From: a virus
Virus record (IMG/VR): IMGVR_UViG_3300039106_000208
Coordinates: 1 to 29,752 of that record
DNA: 29,752 bases
Direction: 5' to 3' (one strand)
A program made the translations under genes and the position numbers. The notes beneath the pieces are model-generated. The model searched no databases and was not told the DNA's origin. It saw only the letters and a program-made list of their open reading frames with translations. The first letter of the stretch is position 1. The number at the start of each line of letters is the position of its first letter. This document shows positions 15,358 to 22,723 of the stretch, in pieces.

Positions 15358-16806
15358 ATGGAATTACCTTTATATATGTTGGAAATATCTGATGATTTGA
15401 ATGATGATGCAGAGGTGCAATTCGTTTCATTAGTAGATAGACCTGCCATTCAAAAGAATTGGAATGCGTTTAAAAATGAACAAAAGTTTCAAATTGTTAG
15501 CGAAGACAAGCATATTATTAGCGGTTGTGCTATGTTGGCTGACACTCCTATTTTTAGAAGTGACGTTAATTTTGGTGACTACTATGTGGCTTTTTCTAAA
15601 GATACAATTGTTAAGATTGTACAGAAATACTTTAAAAAGGGTTACCAAAATAATGTTAACTTAATGCATGACCCTAATCAGATTGAAACAGGGGTAACAA
15701 TGTTTGAAAGTTTTATTAGTGATAAGACTAGAGGCATACATCCTATGAAAGGATTTGAGGATGCACCTGATGGCAGTTGGTTTTGTTCAATGTTGGTAGA
15801 GAATGATGCAGTATGGCAGCAAGTTAAAGATGGCAAAGTTAATGGATTTTCAATTGAAGGTATATTTAACTATGCACCTAGTATTTCAAAAGAGCAACAG
15901 ATAATGAATGAAATATATAAGATATTAGGTGATATTAAAATGGGTGGGCCTGGCAGTGGTCGTAGGCCTGAAGGTGGCGGTGATAATGAAACATCAGGTA
16001 AATCTAGCTCTGCAATTGCTAAAGAAATAGCAGATAAATATGCTAAAGATGCAGAAGCAAGTGTATATAAATTAATGTCATCACCTGATATGGATACACA
16101 TAAATTATATCAGGATAAGGATGGTAATTATAATGAAGAAAGAACTGCATTTCATAAAGGCATAGTACAAGATAAAATTAATGAAGGTTCTACAAATTTA
16201 GGCACTTCTTATTTTTTAGGTGGAGCACCTGCAACAGGTAAAAGTTCATTAGAAAGTTCAGGTCAGGTAACATATCCAGAAGGAATATTAAGGGTTGACC
16301 CTGATGGGATAAAAGAAACTTTGCCTGAATATAATAAAATGACTGAAAATAAAGTTTCAGAAGCGGCTTCTAAAGTTCATGAAGAATCATCAAAGATTAC
16401 AAAAGATGTAATAAATAATGCTGCTCAAATGAAAATGGATGCAGTAATTGATACAGTTGGTGATGGTTCATATGAAAAAGTTGCAGAAAAAGCAAAGCAG
16501 CAGAGGGATGCAGGGAAAAGAGTAGTAGCACATTATGTTACAACTGATGTTGAAACATCATTAAATAGAGCAGCATCAAGGGCAGAAAGAACAGGTAGAA
16601 ATGTTCCAACAGATTATATTAAAGATATGCATAAAGAAATATCAACTATATTCCCAAAATTAGCAGCTAATAATACCTTTAATGAATTGCATTTATATGA
16701 TAATAACGGTGCAACCCCTAAACTTATATATAGCAAAAAAGATGGCAAAGAAACCATCTTAGATACTAATGCTTATAATAGCTTTTTGAAAAAGGCTAAT
16801 GGTTAA
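15358..16806 (+). CDS. XkdF-like prohead protease fused to zeta-toxin-type kinase
   Basis: A 482-residue two-part protein. Residues 1-175 look like an XkdF/S78-type capsid maturation protease: VQFVSLVDRPAI near the start, a possible catalytic H104 in NLMHDP, and S165 in KVNGFSIEGIF. A GGPGSGRRPEGGG linker (196-208) follows. Residues about 215-482 match the zeta toxin kinase family: Walker A GGAPATGKSS (288-297), DPDGIKETLPEY (314-325), AVIDTVGDGS (362-371) and an RAASRAERTGRNVP region. Zeta toxins phosphorylate UDP-GlcNAc and related substrates. Protease position in the head cluster suggests the kinase could be packaged. An in-frame ATG at 15940 could make free kinase. The stop codon overlaps that of the convergent next gene. 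Confidence 0.8.
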   Translation: MELPLYMLEISDDLNDDAEVQFVSLVDRPAIQKNWNAFKNEQKFQIVSEDKHIISGCAMLADTPIFRSDVNFGDYYVAFSKDTIVKIVQKYFKKGYQNNVNLMHDPNQIETGVTMFESFISDKTRGIHPMKGFEDAPDGSWFCSMLVENDAVWQQVKDGKVNGFSIEGIFNYAPSISKEQQIMNEIYKILGDIKMGGPGSGRRPEGGGDNETSGKSSSAIAKEIADKYAKDAEASVYKLMSSPDMDTHKLYQDKDGNYNEERTAFHKGIVQDKINEGSTNLGTSYFLGGAPATGKSSLESSGQVTYPEGILRVDPDGIKETLPEYNKMTENKVSEAASKVHEESSKITKDVINNAAQMKMDAVIDTVGDGSYEKVAEKAKQQRDAGKRVVAHYVTTDVETSLNRAASRAERTGRNVPTDYIKDMHKEISTIFPKLAANNTFNELHLYDNNGATPKLIYSKKDGKETILDTNAYNSFLKKANG

Positions 16807-16976
16807 AGATTTGAAGGAATGTAAGGCATTTGACCTTTCTTCTTCATTTCTTCTAATTGTGCAGCAATCTGTTCTTCATAAGCATTGGCAGGTTTTCTAC
16901 CGTTAATCAATTCAATAAGGACTTTTTCTTTTTGGTCGATTTGAATTGGCTTGTTATCTACTATAACTTCTTTCAT
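16803..16976 (-). CDS. Small leftward protein, 57 aa
   Basis: Read leftward from ATG 16976 to a TAA at 16803-16805. The product begins MKEVIVDNKPIQIDQKEKVL and continues with INGRKPANAYEEQIAAQLEE then MKKKGQMPYIPSNL. It has a plausible beta strand, then an amphipathic helix. I do not recognise the family. Its stop overlaps the stop of the convergent protease-kinase gene. It is the third gene of the leftward cassette. Confidence 0.5.
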   Translation of the reverse strand: MKEVIVDNKPIQIDQKEKVLIELINGRKPANAYEEQIAAQLEEMKKKGQMPYIPSNL

Positions 16977-17022
16977 ATATGTAATTTAAGTATTTTATTT
17001 TAAATAGCAAAATTTAGTTTAT

Positions 17023-17598
17023 TTAAGCATACCAACTAGAATAAACACCTGATTCAGAATTTGCATATTCACAGAAGCAGCCATGTTCAGCTTTTATATA
17101 GTAGCTTATATTCCCATTATAACTAACTGAAAGATTAACTTTTTTAAGGAATGGTTCACCTATAAAAGCATTTTCAACAGGCTTAACATTAGCACACATG
17201 AAACCTTCAGAACCTTCAACATAGCTTTTGCAAATCTTTCTTAATCTAATTGATTTTTCTTTAGATTCGACTACTTGATAAAAGTCAATGTTAGTTTGGT
17301 CATATCCCCAACTATTGTAAAGAATCATACCTTCTTTGAAATTGTGATTCATTTGCTTTTGGGCTTCTTTCTTTTTAGCTTTCCTTTCATTTTCTGCATT
17401 GATATTTCTTTCAATTCTTTCAATCCATTCATTACAGAATTCAACCATTCTTTCAACGCTTCTGAATCTGTAATTAAATAAAGGCTTTTTAAATCTTGCT
17501 TTACTAACCTTTCTAACACAATAGCCAACAATAATTGGTTCTTCTTTTACAGAAAGGTGAAACCCTAAACTTTCATACTTTTTGATTAAATTTTCCAT
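17023..17598 (-). CDS. Conserved phage-type hypothetical, 191 aa, leftward
   Basis: An unusual gene on the otherwise unused strand. Residues 1-75 include ESLGFHLSVKEEPIIVGYCV and a basic helix. From about residue 85 comes NHNFKEGMILYNSWGYDQTN then IDFYQVVESKEKSIRLRKI, a beta-rich domain whose W-G-Y-D-Q-T-N-x-x-F-Y-x-V core I have seen in proteins from many phages and mobile elements. Its function is not known to me. The last quarter carries Cys and Tyr residues (AEHGCFCEYANSESGVYSSW). It lies second in a leftward cassette controlled by the promoter at 17735-17766. Confidence 0.75.
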   Translation of the reverse strand: MENLIKKYESLGFHLSVKEEPIIVGYCVRKVSKARFKKPLFNYRFRSVERMVEFCNEWIERIERNINAENERKAKKKEAQKQMNHNFKEGMILYNSWGYDQTNIDFYQVVESKEKSIRLRKICKSYVEGSEGFMCANVKPVENAFIGEPFLKKVNLSVSYNGNISYYIKAEHGCFCEYANSESGVYSSWYA

Positions 17599-17608
17599 GT
17601 TTTTTGAT

Positions 17609-17710
17609 TTATTTGATTATGATTTGAATTAATACTGAAACAAAAGCGGCAACAATTAAAAGTAGAAACATCTTAACTTCAATTGGCGGTGGTAGAATCT
17701 TGTGGTTCAT
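17609..17710 (-). CDS. Tiny membrane protein, first gene of leftward cassette, 33 aa
   Basis: Start ATG 17710 (MNHKILPPPIEVKMFLLLIV and on) gives a short Pro-rich head and one hydrophobic helix ending in Lys. The frame stays open leftward from 17851, but the promoter elements at 17735-17766 lie inside that extension. Only ATG 17722 or 17710 can be on the transcript; 17710 leaves a leader of about 17 bases. The gene ends 10 bases before the 191-residue gene. Confidence 0.5.
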   Translation of the reverse strand: MNHKILPPPIEVKMFLLLIVAAFVSVLIQIIIK

Positions 17711-17734
17711 AGTGTCTGTCATTTGATTACATAA

Positions 17735-17766
17735 CAAATATAGACAGGTTTTAAACACAATCCAAA
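17735..17766 (-). promoter_or_regulatory. Bacteroidota-type promoter, copy B (leftward)
   Basis: On the minus strand TTTG (17763-17766) and TATATTTG (17735-17742) are 20 bases apart. The block ATGTTTGGATTGTGT at 17755-17769 is identical to that at 6775-6789. Transcription should begin near 17728 and run leftward through three genes. Confidence 0.75.
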
Positions 17767-17792
17767 CATTTTGGTACTTTTTTTTAGAAATA

Positions 17793-17822
17793 TGATGAAC
17801 GGTAAATAATAAGGATGAACGG
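17793..17822 (-). promoter_or_regulatory. Two-site operator-like direct repeat, copy B
   Basis: Read on the minus strand, CCGTTCATCC (17813-17822) and CCGTTCATCA (17793-17802) are 20 bases apart, the same order and spacing as at 6721-6750. The distance to the -33 TTTG is 26 bases here and 27 there. A shared DNA-binding regulator is the simplest explanation. The site also lies just upstream of the scaffold gene on the plus strand. Confidence 0.65.
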
Positions 17823-17869
17823 TTAAGTGATAATATATCAACAATTATCATATTTATATTAAAATATTT

Positions 17870-18484
17870 ATGAATCCAAAAGAAGCATTAAAACAAATCA
17901 GAGCATTGTTCGAAGATATGCCACAAGTTGTTGAGCCTGTTGCTCCTGTAGAACCAACTGCACCTGCAGAACCTACAGTTACAAAGGTAGAAATGGCTGA
18001 ATATTCTTTAGTAGATGGTACTAAGGTTATGATTTCTGCATTAGAAATTGGTGGTATGGTAGAATTAGCTGATGGTACACCTGCTCCACAAGGTGAGCAT
18101 CAATTAATGGATGGTACAATTATCCAAGTTGATGAAATGGGAGCAATCGTAGAAATATCTTCACCAAAAGAAGATGTTATTGTAGAAGAACCTGTTGCAC
18201 CTGCTGCACCTGTAGCACCTGCACAAGATACAACTGCTATGGCTGAAGAATTAAAGGCAGACTTCGCAGAACAAAAAAGTCAATTAGAATCAAAGATTGC
18301 TGAATTAGAGAGCAAAGTAAAACAAGGATTTGCACAAGTAGCTGAATTAGTAGAAGCACTTTCAAATACCCCAACTGCAGAGCCTACTCAAAAAGCAGCA
18401 AACGCTTTTCAATCTTATGTAACTACTAATGACAGTAAGTTCGAAAGATTAGAAAAATATAGAAACGCAATTTTAAACAAATAA
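17870..18484 (+). CDS. Probable capsid scaffolding protein
   Basis: A 204-residue protein directly in front of the major capsid gene. Low-complexity Pro/Ala/Glu/Val stretches (residues 19-38 and 104-122) flank a small beta domain (MAEYSLVDGTKVMISALEIG, then MDGTIIQVDEMGAIVEI). A coiled-coil C-terminal part (ELKADFAEQKSQLESKIAEL) and a short basic tail follow. Acidic, elongated, coiled-coil proteins in this position act as scaffolds that shape the procapsid and are then removed, here presumably by the upstream protease. Assignment is by architecture and position. The start is after an AT-rich leader with no evident TAnnTTTG promoter. Confidence 0.65.
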   Translation: MNPKEALKQIRALFEDMPQVVEPVAPVEPTAPAEPTVTKVEMAEYSLVDGTKVMISALEIGGMVELADGTPAPQGEHQLMDGTIIQVDEMGAIVEISSPKEDVIVEEPVAPAAPVAPAQDTTAMAEELKADFAEQKSQLESKIAELESKVKQGFAQVAELVEALSNTPTAEPTQKAANAFQSYVTTNDSKFERLEKYRNAILNK

Positions 18485-18496
18485 ATTTATAAAAAA

Positions 18497-19447
18497 ATGT
18501 CATTTTCAGTAAGTACATTAACAAACTATACTAAAGAGAACGAAGCATTATTAGTTTCTTCTTCAGTATTAGGAGCAAAAACTGCATCTTTAATTAAGAG
18601 TGCAGGTAACGTAATGGTTGGTGTTAAATCAGCAGAAACCATTAACGTAATGGATACAGATGCTTTCTTCCAAGCAGGTGGAACTTGCGGTTGGAACGCA
18701 TCAGGTACAACTTCTTTCACTCAAAGAACTGTAACCGTAGGTAAAATCAAAGTACAAGAGTCTTTATGTCCTAAGGCATTAGAGGCTAAGTATTTACAAA
18801 AGGCTTTGCCAACAGGTTCTCAGTATGATTCAATTCCATTTGAGCAAGATTATTCTGATAGAAAAGCAAAAGTTATTGCTGCTCAATTAGAAACTGCTAT
18901 CTGGCAAGGTGATACAGGTTCTGCTAACGGTAACTTAAATAAGTTTGATGGTTTAATCAAATTGATTGGTGCTGCTTCAGGAGTTGTAGATGCTAACGTT
19001 TCAGGTTATGTTTCAGGTGCTCCTTTAACTTCAATCACTGCAGCTAATGTTATTGCATTATTTGATGGTGTTTACAAAGCAATCCCTTCTAAAGTTGTAG
19101 CTGCTGATGATATGACTATCTTCTGTGGTGATGATACTTTCAGAACTTACACTATTGCATTGAAGAACGCTAATATGTTCAACTATGCATTTGATGGTAA
19201 AGCTGATAGCGAATTCGTATTGCCAGGGACTTCAATCAAAGTTGTAGCAGTTGCAGGTTTGAACGGTACAAATGATGTTTACGCAATGCGTTTAAGCAAT
19301 TTGTTCTTAGGTACAGACTTATTGAATGAAGAAGAAAAATTTGAAATCTTCTTTGCTAAAGAAGCTGATGAAGTACGTTTTGCAGCAGAATTCAAAATGG
19401 GTGTGAATATCGCATTCCCTGATGAAATCGTAAAAGTAGCAATCTAA
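18497..19447 (+). CDS. Major capsid protein
   Basis: A 316-residue protein between scaffold and terminator. It begins MSFSVSTLTNYTKENEALLV. The middle holds VGKIKVQESLCPKALEAKYL then LPTGSQYDSIPFEQDY and KAKVIAAQLETAIWQGDT, the long spine-helix and P-domain-like layout expected for an HK97-fold capsid. The C-terminus, FAAEFKMGVNIAFPDEIVKV, resembles the final strands of that fold. C-ending codons such as AAC appear frequent compared with neighbours, fitting high expression. It is followed 8 bases later by a strong hairpin, which fits a need for high, separately set output. Confidence 0.85.
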   Translation: MSFSVSTLTNYTKENEALLVSSSVLGAKTASLIKSAGNVMVGVKSAETINVMDTDAFFQAGGTCGWNASGTTSFTQRTVTVGKIKVQESLCPKALEAKYLQKALPTGSQYDSIPFEQDYSDRKAKVIAAQLETAIWQGDTGSANGNLNKFDGLIKLIGAASGVVDANVSGYVSGAPLTSITAANVIALFDGVYKAIPSKVVAADDMTIFCGDDTFRTYTIALKNANMFNYAFDGKADSEFVLPGTSIKVVAVAGLNGTNDVYAMRLSNLFLGTDLLNEEEKFEIFFAKEADEVRFAAEFKMGVNIAFPDEIVKVAI

Positions 19448-19505: not shown

Positions 19506-20024
19506 ATGGCGTGTGCATTAACACAGGGATATACCCTAGATTGTCGTGATTCCTTAGGTGGAATTACTGAAGTTTATTTTATTGCAAGTTCGGATATTAC
19601 TTCTAGCACAGAAGCGAGTGGTGTAATTACTGCTTTAGTAAAAGCTACAGGTAAGAGGTTTTATAAATATGAATTAACAAAAGGTACTTCAATGTTTACT
19701 GAAAACGTAGCATCAAACGTACAAAATGGTACTTTATATTTCACTCCTGAATTAACAATAATCTTAAACAAGTTACAAGCTAATACGAGAAACGAAATCT
19801 TATTATTAGCACAAAATAGACTTGTTGCAGTTGCTAAAGATAACAATGGTAAATATTGGTATCTAGGTAAAACAAGAGCATTAGATTTAACAGGTGGTAG
19901 TGCTGCAAGTGGTACTGCTGAAGGTGACAGAAGTGGTTATACATTAACCTTTACAGGTGCAGAACCTGCTCTTTCTCCTGAAGTGAATTCTACTGTTGCT
20001 GCTGCTTTGACTACTGCAGGATAA
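19506..20024 (+). CDS. Probable major tail (tube) protein
   Basis: A 172-residue protein with MACALTQGYTLDCRDSLGGI at the N-terminus, a centre of FYKYELTKGTSMFTENV then NKLQANTRNEILLLAQNRLV, and a C-terminal GDRSGYTLTFTGAEPALSPE. This family is widespread next to capsid genes in Bacteroidota phages. The two-strand core, long helix and a C-terminal T-L-T-F-T-G-x-E strand fit tube-type folds. I therefore favour the tail tube, but a different head-decorating or neck protein is possible. It is bracketed by two terminators, as expected of a protein made in many copies. Confidence 0.6.
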   Translation: MACALTQGYTLDCRDSLGGITEVYFIASSDITSSTEASGVITALVKATGKRFYKYELTKGTSMFTENVASNVQNGTLYFTPELTIILNKLQANTRNEILLLAQNRLVAVAKDNNGKYWYLGKTRALDLTGGSAASGTAEGDRSGYTLTFTGAEPALSPEVNSTVAAALTTAG

Positions 20025-20052
20025 TAAGTTTGTAGATTTTTCATAGTTAGTT

Positions 20053-20084
20053 CCCCTGCCTAGTTTTCTAGGTGGGGGTTTTTT
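20053..20084 (+). terminator. Strong rho-independent terminator
   Basis: CCCCTGCCTAG and CTAGGTGGGG form a stem closed by a TTTT loop, followed by six Ts (20079-20084). It ends the scaffold-capsid-tube unit. The arms CCCCTGCC and GGTGGGGG recur at 9093 and 7208. Confidence 0.9.
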
Positions 20085-20372
20085 ATGTATAAAAAAGTCA
20101 AGTATTGCCTTTACTTTATTACAACTTTTGTAAAGTTTTACCCTTACTTTATGCTGATAATGTCCCTTAAAAGTAACATAAGACTATTCAAATGTTCCTT
20201 TAATGACAACTTATTATAATTTAGATACAACAAGTAATTATAATTTGCATGAATTTTTCTAAAAATATAAGTTAAAAAGTAAAGTTATTGACTTACTTTA
20301 TTATGACATAAGTCAAATAATAGCTTTACTTACTTGTTTTGTAAATATTTATATAATTGCTATTTATAATTG
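20085..20372 (+). promoter_or_regulatory. Gene-poor control region with TTTACTTTA repeats
   Basis: This 288-base, very AT-rich gap lies between a strong terminator and the portal operon. It holds repeats of a TTTACTTTA-like word: 20109-20121 (CTTTACTTTATTA), 20142-20153 (CCTTACTTTATG), 20277-20284 reversed, 20291-20303 (ACTTACTTTATTA) and 20324-20331 (CTTTACTT). A 44-residue frame from 20085 looks spurious. The portal operon must be started here or by read-through, yet I see no good TAnnTTTG; the nearest is TATAATTG at 20365-20372, next to the start codon. Confidence 0.5.
20277..20331 (+). repeat. Interrupted palindrome
   Basis: The left arm AAGTAAAG-TTATT-GACTTA (20277-20295) is complementary to the right arm TAAGTC-AAATAATAG-CTTTACTT (20309-20331), with small bulges and a 13-base loop. 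It could bind a dimeric regulator or form a cruciform or RNA hairpin about 40 bases before the next start codon. Confidence 0.6.
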
Positions 20373-20747
20373 ATGATACATTTAACTAAGGGACAAACCA
20401 ATACAATTATAATGACTTTAACTGAAAAGCAGTTATTGATTAATCCTAACTATTTATTTGTTTTTACAAATAGAAGTAGCAATAATGTTATTAAATTTGT
20501 AGTTTTAAACGCATCAGATTTAAGTTTATTTAAGGATAGATACAATGAATTTAGTATTGTTACTAATACTAACTTTAGTTCTGCATTAGAAGGTCAATAT
20601 ACATATGAAGTGTATGAACAGGCAAGTAGTTCAAACACAAATATAACAGGCTTAAATAAGCTAGAAACAGGCATTATGTGGCTTTCAGGTTCTACTATGA
20701 CATATAATCAATACAATACAACAGACACTTATACAATTAGACAATGA
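20373..20747 (+). CDS. Conserved phage structural-type protein, 124 aa
   Basis: Start ATG 20373 (MIHLTKGQTNTIIMTLTEKQ); a TTG just before it is less likely. The protein is beta-rich, with NPNYLFVFTNRSSNN, then FKDRYNEFSIVTN and LEGQYTYEVYEQAS. This L-F-x-F-x-N and R-Y-N-x-F pattern is familiar to me from Bacteroidota phage structural clusters. I cannot give its role; a small tail or neck component is the best guess. Its stop overlaps the portal start (ATGA). Confidence 0.55.
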   Translation: MIHLTKGQTNTIIMTLTEKQLLINPNYLFVFTNRSSNNVIKFVVLNASDLSLFKDRYNEFSIVTNTNFSSALEGQYTYEVYEQASSSNTNITGLNKLETGIMWLSGSTMTYNQYNTTDTYTIRQ

Positions 20748-22723
20748 TAGATTTAAGAGTATTAACATTCGCAGAAGCTAGGCAGCCTGAATTCAAAGAG
20801 AAGAAAGGTGCAGATGGTGGATATATTAAATATGGGGAAAATAATGATTACCCTGAATATATAGTTGACTTATACAATAAGTCTTCTAAACATAGTGCAA
20901 TTATCAAAAGTAAGGTGCATTATATTACAGGTAATGGGTGGTCAGGTGAGGCTGATGCACAAGCGTTTATAGACAAAGCTAATAGAGTTGAATCATTAGA
21001 TGATTTAACTAGAAAAGTATCATTAGATATTGAAATATTTGGCGGTGCTTATTTAGAAGTTATCTGGGATTTATCAGGCAATCTTGCTGAACTATGGCAT
21101 TGTGATTATGTTAAAATTAGAACTAATAAAGATAATACACAGTATTGGTATAAAGAGGATTGGAAAGATAATAAAGTTAAGCCTACAGTAATAGCTGCAT
21201 TTAACCCTAAGCAGCCTGTTGGAAAACAGATTCTTTATATAAAAGAATATAGACCTAACATTGGAATCTATGGATTGCCTAGTTACTTTGCTGCATTAAA
21301 CTACATTGAATCAGATATTGAAGTATCTAAGCATATTTTAGGAAATGCACAAACAGGGTTTTCTGCTAGTAAACTTATTACTTTGCCAAATGGTGAACCT
21401 AATGATGAGGAAAAGCGTAATGTAGATAATAGATTAAGAAAGACTTATAGCGGTGCAGATGGTAAAAAATACATGATTGCATTTGTTAATGATATATCTA
21501 GGAAGCCTGTCGTAGATGACTTAGGTACTAGTGATTTAACAAAAGAAGATTTTAGCAGAGTAGATGAATTAATTCAGACTAATATATTTAGTGGGCATCA
21601 GGTTACAACCCCATCAATTATGGGTATTGCTGAAGCAGGTAAATTAGGCAGCAGAACTGAAATGCGTGATGGCTATGAAATATTTAAAAACACATATGTA
21701 AATGCAAAACAAATGCATTTAGAAAGTGTATTCAATATGTTAGCTAAATTAAAAGGTGTTGAATCTGAAATAAAGATTATACCTACAGAACCAATTGGAA
21801 TAGAATTTAGTGAACAAACTATTGTTTCAGTTGCACCAAAAGAATGGGTATTAGAAAAGATTGGTATTGATGCTACTAAGTATGCACCTACTGAAGCAAC
21901 TGCACCTGTAGAAGGCTTATCTGTTAACGAGCATATAAAAGGTTTAAAGGGTAGAGAATGGCAAAATATGCAGCGTATCATTCGTGAATTTACCAAAGGT
22001 AAAATTAACAGGCAACAAGCTACTGCAATGCTTAAAACAGGATATGCTTTAAGTGATGAAGAAGTTAATACATGGTTAGGCTCAGAAGAAATGGATGCAG
22101 AATTTGCAGCACAAGATTTTGGTGTGTTCTATGAATTTGGTGAAAATAAAGATGCGTTTAATGTTTGGAAATCTAAAAAACGTTTTAGTGATGAAGCTGA
22201 CTTTCATATGTTTGCTGATGTTACACAATTAGAATCTGACATTTTAGACCAGATAGCAAAGCAAAAAGATATTACACCTGAAGTATTGGCAGAAGTTTTA
22301 GATGAAGATGTTGACACTATTAATACAGTTTTAAAAGACTTAGAAGATAGAAAGATTTTAAAAACTACTGAAACTAAAATAGGCAAAGGAATCAATAGCA
22401 ATATAATTGTTTCAAGAGAATTAACCCAACCATTATCTAAAACAGTAGGTAATGTAAAGCCTGAAACTACAGAAATTTTAGTTCGTTATTCTTATGATTG
22501 GATAACAGGATTTAATAATTCAGATAAGAAAAATAGCAGACCTTTTTGTGTTGCTTTATTAGATGCTAATAAATTATATAGCAGAAGTGACATTGAAGCA
22601 ATGAGTGCAAGACTAGGATATTCTGTATGGGATAGGAGAGGCGGTTGGTGGAATGACAATGGCACAATTAGCGAATCATGCAGACACGAGTGGCGTACAA
22701 ATATCGTTACTAGAAAAAAATAA
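20744..22723 (+). CDS. Portal protein with winged-helix-like and MuF-like C-terminal domains
   Basis: A 659-residue multidomain protein. Residues 1 to about 385 are a portal: KYGENNDYPEYIVDLYNKSS, then SKVHYITGNGW, GGAYLEVIW and a long stem helix. Residues about 395-460 form helices. Residues about 487-550 (ADVTQLESDILDQIAKQKDI, then LAEVLDEDVDTINTVLKDLE) look like a winged helix-turn-helix. Residues about 583-659 contain KNSRPFC, a DRRGGWW turn and SCRHEW, resembling the C-terminal part of MuF minor-head proteins. Portal forms the DNA entry ring; the MuF-like tail would lie inside the head. Fusion of these functions in one chain is notable. It overlaps the preceding gene by 4 bases. Confidence 0.85.
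   Translation: MIDLRVLTFAEARQPEFKEKKGADGGYIKYGENNDYPEYIVDLYNKSSKHSAIIKSKVHYITGNGWSGEADAQAFIDKANRVESLDDLTRKVSLDIEIFGGAYLEVIWDLSGNLAELWHCDYVKIRTNKDNTQYWYKEDWKDNKVKPTVIAAFNPKQPVGKQILYIKEYRPNIGIYGLPSYFAALNYIESDIEVSKHILGNAQTGFSASKLITLPNGEPNDEEKRNVDNRLRKTYSGADGKKYMIAFVNDISRKPVVDDLGTSDLTKEDFSRVDELIQTNIFSGHQVTTPSIMGIAEAGKLGSRTEMRDGYEIFKNTYVNAKQMHLESVFNMLAKLKGVESEIKIIPTEPIGIEFSEQTIVSVAPKEWVLEKIGIDATKYAPTEATAPVEGLSVNEHIKGLKGREWQNMQRIIREFTKGKINRQQATAMLKTGYALSDEEVNTWLGSEEMDAEFAAQDFGVFYEFGENKDAFNVWKSKKRFSDEADFHMFADVTQLESDILDQIAKQKDITPEVLAEVLDEDVDTINTVLKDLEDRKILKTTETKIGKGINSNIIVSRELTQPLSKTVGNVKPETTEILVRYSYDWITGFNNSDKKNSRPFCVALLDANKLYSRSDIEAMSARLGYSVWDRRGGWWNDNGTISESCRHEWRTNIVTRKK

Follow-up and report, generated by a model that had tools for sequence, protein, structure and literature searches.

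We analysed the window, the whole 29,752-nucleotide stretch of the IMG/VR virus record IMGVR_UViG_3300039106_000208, around a forward-strand open reading frame (ORF) at 15358-16806. This ORF encodes a 482-amino-acid (aa) fusion of a phage head protease and a zeta-type kinase, with an ATG start. The original prediction had described an N-terminal XkdF/S78-type prohead protease with H104 and S165, followed after a linker by a zeta kinase with an intact Walker A motif and D314/D316, and both halves were borne out. Peptidase_S78_2 matched residues 44-169 (E = 7.6e-14, Pfam) and Zeta_toxin matched residues 283-453 (E = 5.5e-29, Pfam), each above the curated cut-off. The protease core, residues 1-174 (15358-15879, +), was delimited by Pfam, alignment and identity to the toxin-less phage L047 (compared loci carry L numbers here), and it is common to toxin-less relatives. 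H104 and S165, presumably the catalytic pair, showed no variation across 28 aligned relatives. The profile match, the retained His and Ser, and the adjoining scaffold and capsid genes identify this half as an S78_2 (XkdF) prohead protease.

The zeta-type kinase domain, together with N-terminal helices, spans 16003-16803 (+; Pfam core at 16204-16716). It carries the Walker A motif GAPATGKS at residues 289-296, including K295, as well as D314 and D316; the Walker A and DxD motifs did not vary across 16 zeta-bearing alignment rows. A profile search of the PDB matched the kinase half by sequence to zeta 1gvn_B (E = 6e-10). In the AlphaFold model of the fusion, the predicted local distance difference test score (pLDDT) of the zeta half was mostly 80-94. 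The structural comparison with zeta and PezT that had been proposed earlier returned 1gvn_B as the top Foldseek match (E = 1.1e-9), followed by AvrRxo1, a kinase with a zeta-like fold, and PezT. Grouped by fold, the pSM19035 zeta came first and the AvrRxo1 kinase second. Because of this second group, the kinase may act on some nucleotide different from UDP-N-acetylglucosamine. K295, D316, D365, R404 and R414 of the fusion aligned with K46, D67, E116, R158 and R171, zeta residues described as essential (PMC6356619). The fold, the Walker A motif and the kept equivalents of K46, D67, R158 and R171 place this half among the zeta kinases.

The two halves are separated, as had been foreseen, by a linker, GGPGSGRRPEGGG (residues 196-208; 15943-15981, +), which is predicted to be disordered (pLDDT < 50 at residues 190-215). 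A near-identical linker precedes every cargo type in the relatives. The linker could serve for processing, as a flexible tether or as homology for recombination. An internal start at M195 that would make free kinase was rejected as a conserved mechanism, position 195 being Leu or Phe in most relatives. The motif GGPGSGRxPEGG also joins the portal protein of another phage (L142) to a PBECR1 nuclease domain (E = 2.4e-9). It lies between a portal-like protein and a DUF4258 match just under the cut-off in L106, and between a portal-like protein and a weakly matching metallopeptidase-like domain in L117. These portal-protein linkers in unrelated phages hint at a wider linker convention for head-protein cargo.

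The feature under study exceeds the ORF. The window and L047 share 97.8% DNA identity through nucleotide 521 of the ORF, and identity restarts at ~17824 in the window, facing L047 position +585. In the window ~1.94 kb (15880-17823) stands in place of ~63 bp in L047. Empty-site comparison against L047 and L049 thus outlines an exchangeable cassette at ~15880-17823 that takes in the end of the protease ORF, the linker, the kinase and the reverse-strand genes. Compared with L055, L028 has a 2.6 kb cassette with a different cargo, between flanks that are 89-98% identical. The cassettes range from 1.9 to 2.6 kb and lie between the protease and scaffold genes.

Homologues lacking the kinase, a search suggested by the original prediction, were found, and most relatives in this phage group have the protease without a toxin. 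Beyond the zeta fusions, the relatives in our first scan comprised 26 with another C-terminal domain, two short-tailed proteins (L052 and L053) and, for the rest, the protease alone (~195 aa). The second cargo, present in sister phages and not in the window, matches the type VI secretion system (T6SS) toxin Tas1 (6ox6, E = 8e-29), a (p)ppApp synthetase. Its Tas1-homologous synthetase domain and neighbouring Tis1-like gene assign it to the Tas1/Apk toxins, and we refer to it as Apk. The fused gene is real, as originally proposed. The kinase is one of several cargoes that can be swapped, which could not be seen from the single gene on which that prediction was based.

Protease residues 1-173 are identical between the zeta phage L004 and the Apk phage L028, and between L004 and the toxin-less phage L055. 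Protease and cargo identities are 100% and 61% for L037 and L040, 94% and 70% for the window and L008, and 71% and 84% for the window and L009. A tree of the first 173 protease residues requires 27 cargo-type changes, and its well-supported branches force at least 5-6 changes per main cargo class, as read from a quick tree of a short alignment. Across three protease clades the fusions hold frame and linker. A fixed N-terminal carrier whose C-terminal toxin domains can be exchanged is the arrangement of a polymorphic toxin.

The same protease-zeta join was present in 20 other IMG/VR contigs (58-93% identical), and one further zeta fusion (L148/L179) belongs to a protease clade that is more remote. 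Because 20 other contigs carry this join, the fusion is neither chance nor assembly error. The ratio of nonsynonymous to synonymous substitution rates (dN/dS) was 0.09-0.30 for the zeta part (nine pairs) and 0.05-0.25 for the Apk part (six pairs). These values, well below 1, show that both cargo parts are under purifying selection. None of 62 further proteases looked at in a wider scan had a cargo. A fourth cargo was observed at L127:1638-2765, a protease fusion of 376 aa whose C-terminal domain is unassigned and which lacks the reverse-strand cassette; an ADP-ribosyltransferase identity, seen by eye, was unsupported by Pfam, PHROGs, NCBIfam and the PDB and was dropped. L052:5001-5906 and L091 have the protease, the linker and a ~100-aa helical tail of unknown function, and L052:5001-5906 has no partner genes downstream.

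The partner genes follow the cargo. In zeta loci a 57-58 aa reverse-strand gene is convergent with the toxin, with overlapping or adjoining stop codons, and is followed by a 191-aa reverse-strand gene. In the window these are at 16803-16976 (−; 57 aa, stop codon overlapping that of the fusion) and 17023-17598 (−; phrog_37844), the latter constant in zeta and Apk cassettes by locus comparison. A hydrolase or small sense ORF was found in no zeta locus. Scanning IMG/VR for the 57-aa family gave 19 loci, each beside a zeta fusion, with patterns built from known members that distant homologues could escape; the gene was not found in Apk or toxin-less loci. Each of the 28 Apk loci whose flank was long enough shows, after the toxin, a sense ORF of 72-76 aa, then a reverse-strand HD hydrolase and then the 191-aa gene. 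Of six members of the sense ORF family that were scanned, three matched Tis1_ImmP (best E = 4e-4; the listed member falls below the curated cut-off). The hydrolase matches 6yvc and 6z3n, both small alarmone hydrolases (E ~3e-7 to 5e-7), and that of L180 matches a RelA/SpoT model. Toxin-less loci lack the 57-aa, 191-aa, Tis1-like and hydrolase genes altogether.

Linkage marks the 57-aa gene for zeta, and the Tis1-like and hydrolase genes for Apk, as predicted cargo-specific immunity genes adjoining the toxin. MuF-borne Apk2 toxins have binding-type (IapK) and enzymatic (Aph1) immunity proteins (PMC12226406), and because the partner genes of the Apk and MuF-Apk2 toxins follow the same logic, we predict from its distribution that the 57-aa gene encodes zeta immunity. 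The original prediction had named the adjoining cassette as a candidate immunity source and had noted no epsilon-like antitoxin beside the fusion. Both points hold: the 57-aa gene occurs only beside zeta, the sister Apk cargo has two immunity-type genes in that place, and no neighbour matched epsilon or PezA in Pfam, PHROGs, PADLOC or PDB searches (PADLOC matched none of the cassette proteins). Pentatricopeptide repeat protein matches of the 57-aa profile were discarded because they add up a single 16-residue helix across designed repeats and no individual stretch is significant. The 191-aa protein has a predicted model of pLDDT 90, with no fold match in the PDB. The Kyanoviridae phage C48C1 has a homologue, which lies with other small genes not far from a late-transcription regulator. 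We also observed a free-standing Apk synthetase, a small ORF and an HD hydrolase on one strand of MT835636.1 (L206:2956-4364), an unannotated faecal phage contig.

Upstream of these reverse-strand genes, and reading toward them, is a promoter-like element, TTTG-N20-TATATTTG (17735-17766, −), which has the form of a Bacteroidota promoter. The element with its surroundings could be recognised in 41 of 50 toxin loci versus none of 61 toxin-less loci, counts that come from related and hence not independent loci. In about half of the 41 element-bearing loci the TATATTTG box deviates in its last bases. Downstream of the element, 17609-17722 (−) encodes a short predicted membrane peptide of ~37 aa with homologues in many loci. 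The longest ORF here is 17609-17851 (80 aa, −), and its real start is probably at 17722.

The first gene past the cassette encodes a scaffold-like protein (17870-18484, +), which matches the C-terminal half of phrog_24921. It is followed by a major capsid protein candidate (18497-19447, +), judged by position and by matches to phrog_1623, a virion structural protein (E = 1.4e-10), and phrog_752, a major head protein (E = 0.007). In a cultured relative, the Nonlabens phage P12024L, the protease and scaffold form a single 349-aa coding sequence, and the genes after it are in an order compatible with that of the window. Because the cargo sits where P12024L attaches its scaffold, it is plausible, by this analogy, that the cargo is inside the procapsid during assembly.

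These data suggest, at a probability of about two in three, that the locus is a polymorphic toxin-immunity system in which the capsid maturation protease is the carrier and the cargo and its partner genes change as one cassette. The protease domain would carry the C-terminal cargo into the procapsid; the cargo would probably be released near the linker and travel in the virion, as the original prediction had proposed. Once injected, the zeta kinase would phosphorylate UDP-N-acetylglucosamine or a related nucleotide and stall the cell. The reverse-strand genes, from their own promoter-like element, would make the immunity protein, that is, the 57-aa protein for zeta and the hydrolase for Apk, beside the sense-strand Tis1-like gene. 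This protein would protect the cell that makes the virions as well as cells in which the same phage is already present. We favour this model because identical proteases carry zeta, Apk or nothing within defined cassette boundaries and with repeated switches in the tree, and because the 57-aa gene occurs only beside zeta and the Tis1-like and hydrolase genes are present in 28 of 28 Apk loci. The protease-scaffold fusion of P12024L, the tie of the promoter-like element to toxin loci, the domain matches, the 20 homologous fusions, the Tas1-homologous alternative cargo and purifying selection argue in the same direction.

Several points weigh against it. We infer packaging, linker cleavage, injection, toxicity and immunity from sequence patterns. 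E116 of zeta is Asp365 in the fusion, the sole change among the five key residues, and the 57-aa protein has no recognisable homology to epsilon or to any immunity family. A search for tyrosine integrases and serine recombinases (PF00589 and PF00239) found none in 20 relatives, whose sequences span 28-36 kb and may be incomplete. MuF toxin versions have been reported only from temperate phages (PMC5576092), so either the benefit differs here or these phages are temperate by other means.

The group, uncultured tailed phages that probably infect Bacteroidota, may not be temperate, because the relatives have no detected integrase and a scan of cellular genome contigs yielded no confirmed relative. 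If so, the targets are more likely to be competing phages than non-lysogens. A tentative extension, to which we give considerably less credence than to the carrier model itself, is that the protease is a general toxin vehicle in non-lysogenising phages. Injected toxin would stall the cell unless the incoming or resident genome expresses matching immunity early. The cargo types would be self/non-self markers in phage-phage competition, and swapping would create new specificities.

An unlikely alternative, though the most probable of the rivals, is that the toxin domain acts in the virion-making cell and not in the next host. Expressed late, it would divert pools of nucleotide sugars or ATP, or make the wall weaker, before being cut off and left behind, with the immunity genes merely blocking premature action. 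The fusion does sit in the late head operon, and a zeta kinase blocks use of cell-wall precursors (PMC4179160). This explanation leaves the constant head-protease carrier, at the position of the P12024L scaffold, unaccounted for. Somewhat more doubtful is an addiction or exclusion module (a moron) that uses the late operon, hits superinfecting phages or phage-losing cells, and is fused to the protease incidentally. The free-standing Apk, small ORF and hydrolase block of the faecal phage, the reverse-strand genes' own promoter-like element and a second hot spot of reverse-strand genes downstream would fit such a module. A free toxin gene would suffice for it, however, and none was seen apart from the protease in the protease-fusion loci of this group; frame and linker are also kept in all fusions over three protease clades.

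It is improbable that the zeta-like domain is a metabolic or repair kinase that aids phage replication and is not a toxin. Polynucleotide kinases and adenylate kinases are among the weaker fold matches, and Bacteroides phage DAC19 has a free zeta-like kinase among small genes, but the best fold and sequence matches are zeta toxins, four of the key zeta residues have kept equivalents, and the same slot elsewhere holds a Tas1 homologue with immunity-type genes. An assembly artefact, raised in the original prediction, or a decaying gene can be dismissed: the window is a metagenome-derived record, but the 20 homologous fusions and the low dN/dS contradict both.

The carrier model has its closest parallels in the MuF polymorphic toxins (Jamet et al. 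2017, PMC5576092), Bxa of Bacteroides stercoris (PMC11699363) among them, where a head-morphogenesis protein likewise ends in a toxin domain that varies, with immunity genes beside it. For MuF toxins too, loading into the head and injection are hypotheses (PMC5576092), and known toxins on MuF carriers include RelA-like proteins and ADP-ribosyltransferases (PMC5576092, PMC11699363). The carrier here differs, being an S78_2 prohead protease in which Pfam finds no MuF domain; the immunity genes are mostly on the opposite strand, and the relatives lack a detected integrase. Apk2 with IapK and Aph1 (PMC12226406) resembles the sister cargo in combining a (p)ppApp synthetase, a small immunity protein and a hydrolase. 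The sister cargo also shares Tas1 homology and a Tis1-like gene with Tas1-Tis1 (T6SS) and free-standing Apk, but it rides on a phage head protease and has an extra alarmone hydrolase gene.

The zeta and PezT toxins of epsilon-zeta and PezAT share with the fusion the fold, Walker A, catalytic Asp and two Arg residues. They differ in having no capsid protease, in their epsilon or PezA partner where the fusion has an unrelated 57-aa predicted immunity protein, and at E116. Polyvalent proteins and MuF-zeta fusions similarly place effector domains, including zeta kinases, on phage proteins thought to enter the virion (PMC5512222), and phage zeta kinase-MuF fusions were noted by Iyer et al. 2017 (PMC5512222). 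Processing of polyvalent proteins by assemblin-like peptidases has been proposed, and in polyvalent proteins these peptidases are stated to be always C-terminal (PMC5512222), whereas the S78_2 protease here is N-terminal and apparently the phage's own head protease.

In the open-access literature, the scope of our search, we came across no account of polymorphic toxins borne on a protease. Our results point to the head protease as a second and little-noticed vehicle for toxins, which phages may inject. If so, an enzyme that cuts proteins inside the procapsid would join the carriers of phage polymorphic toxins, and the 57-aa protein would be a candidate zeta-kinase immunity protein with no relation to epsilon or PezA. 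What toxins borne on phage heads do biologically has been described as unknown (PMC11699363), and a toxin set in phages apparently without integrases bears directly on this. The natural near-isogenic sets, in which the same protease has zeta, Apk or no cargo, allow comparison of packaging, release and immunity.

Two observations concern the genes farther downstream. At a second variable spot (20024-20370 in the window) the gap ranges from 90 to 2038 bases among these phages; L018 has a reverse-strand HNH-like gene there, and L058 has several reverse-strand genes. The portal protein (20744-22723) shows a weak C-terminal winged-helix match of MarR type at residues 492-542 (E = 7e-4).
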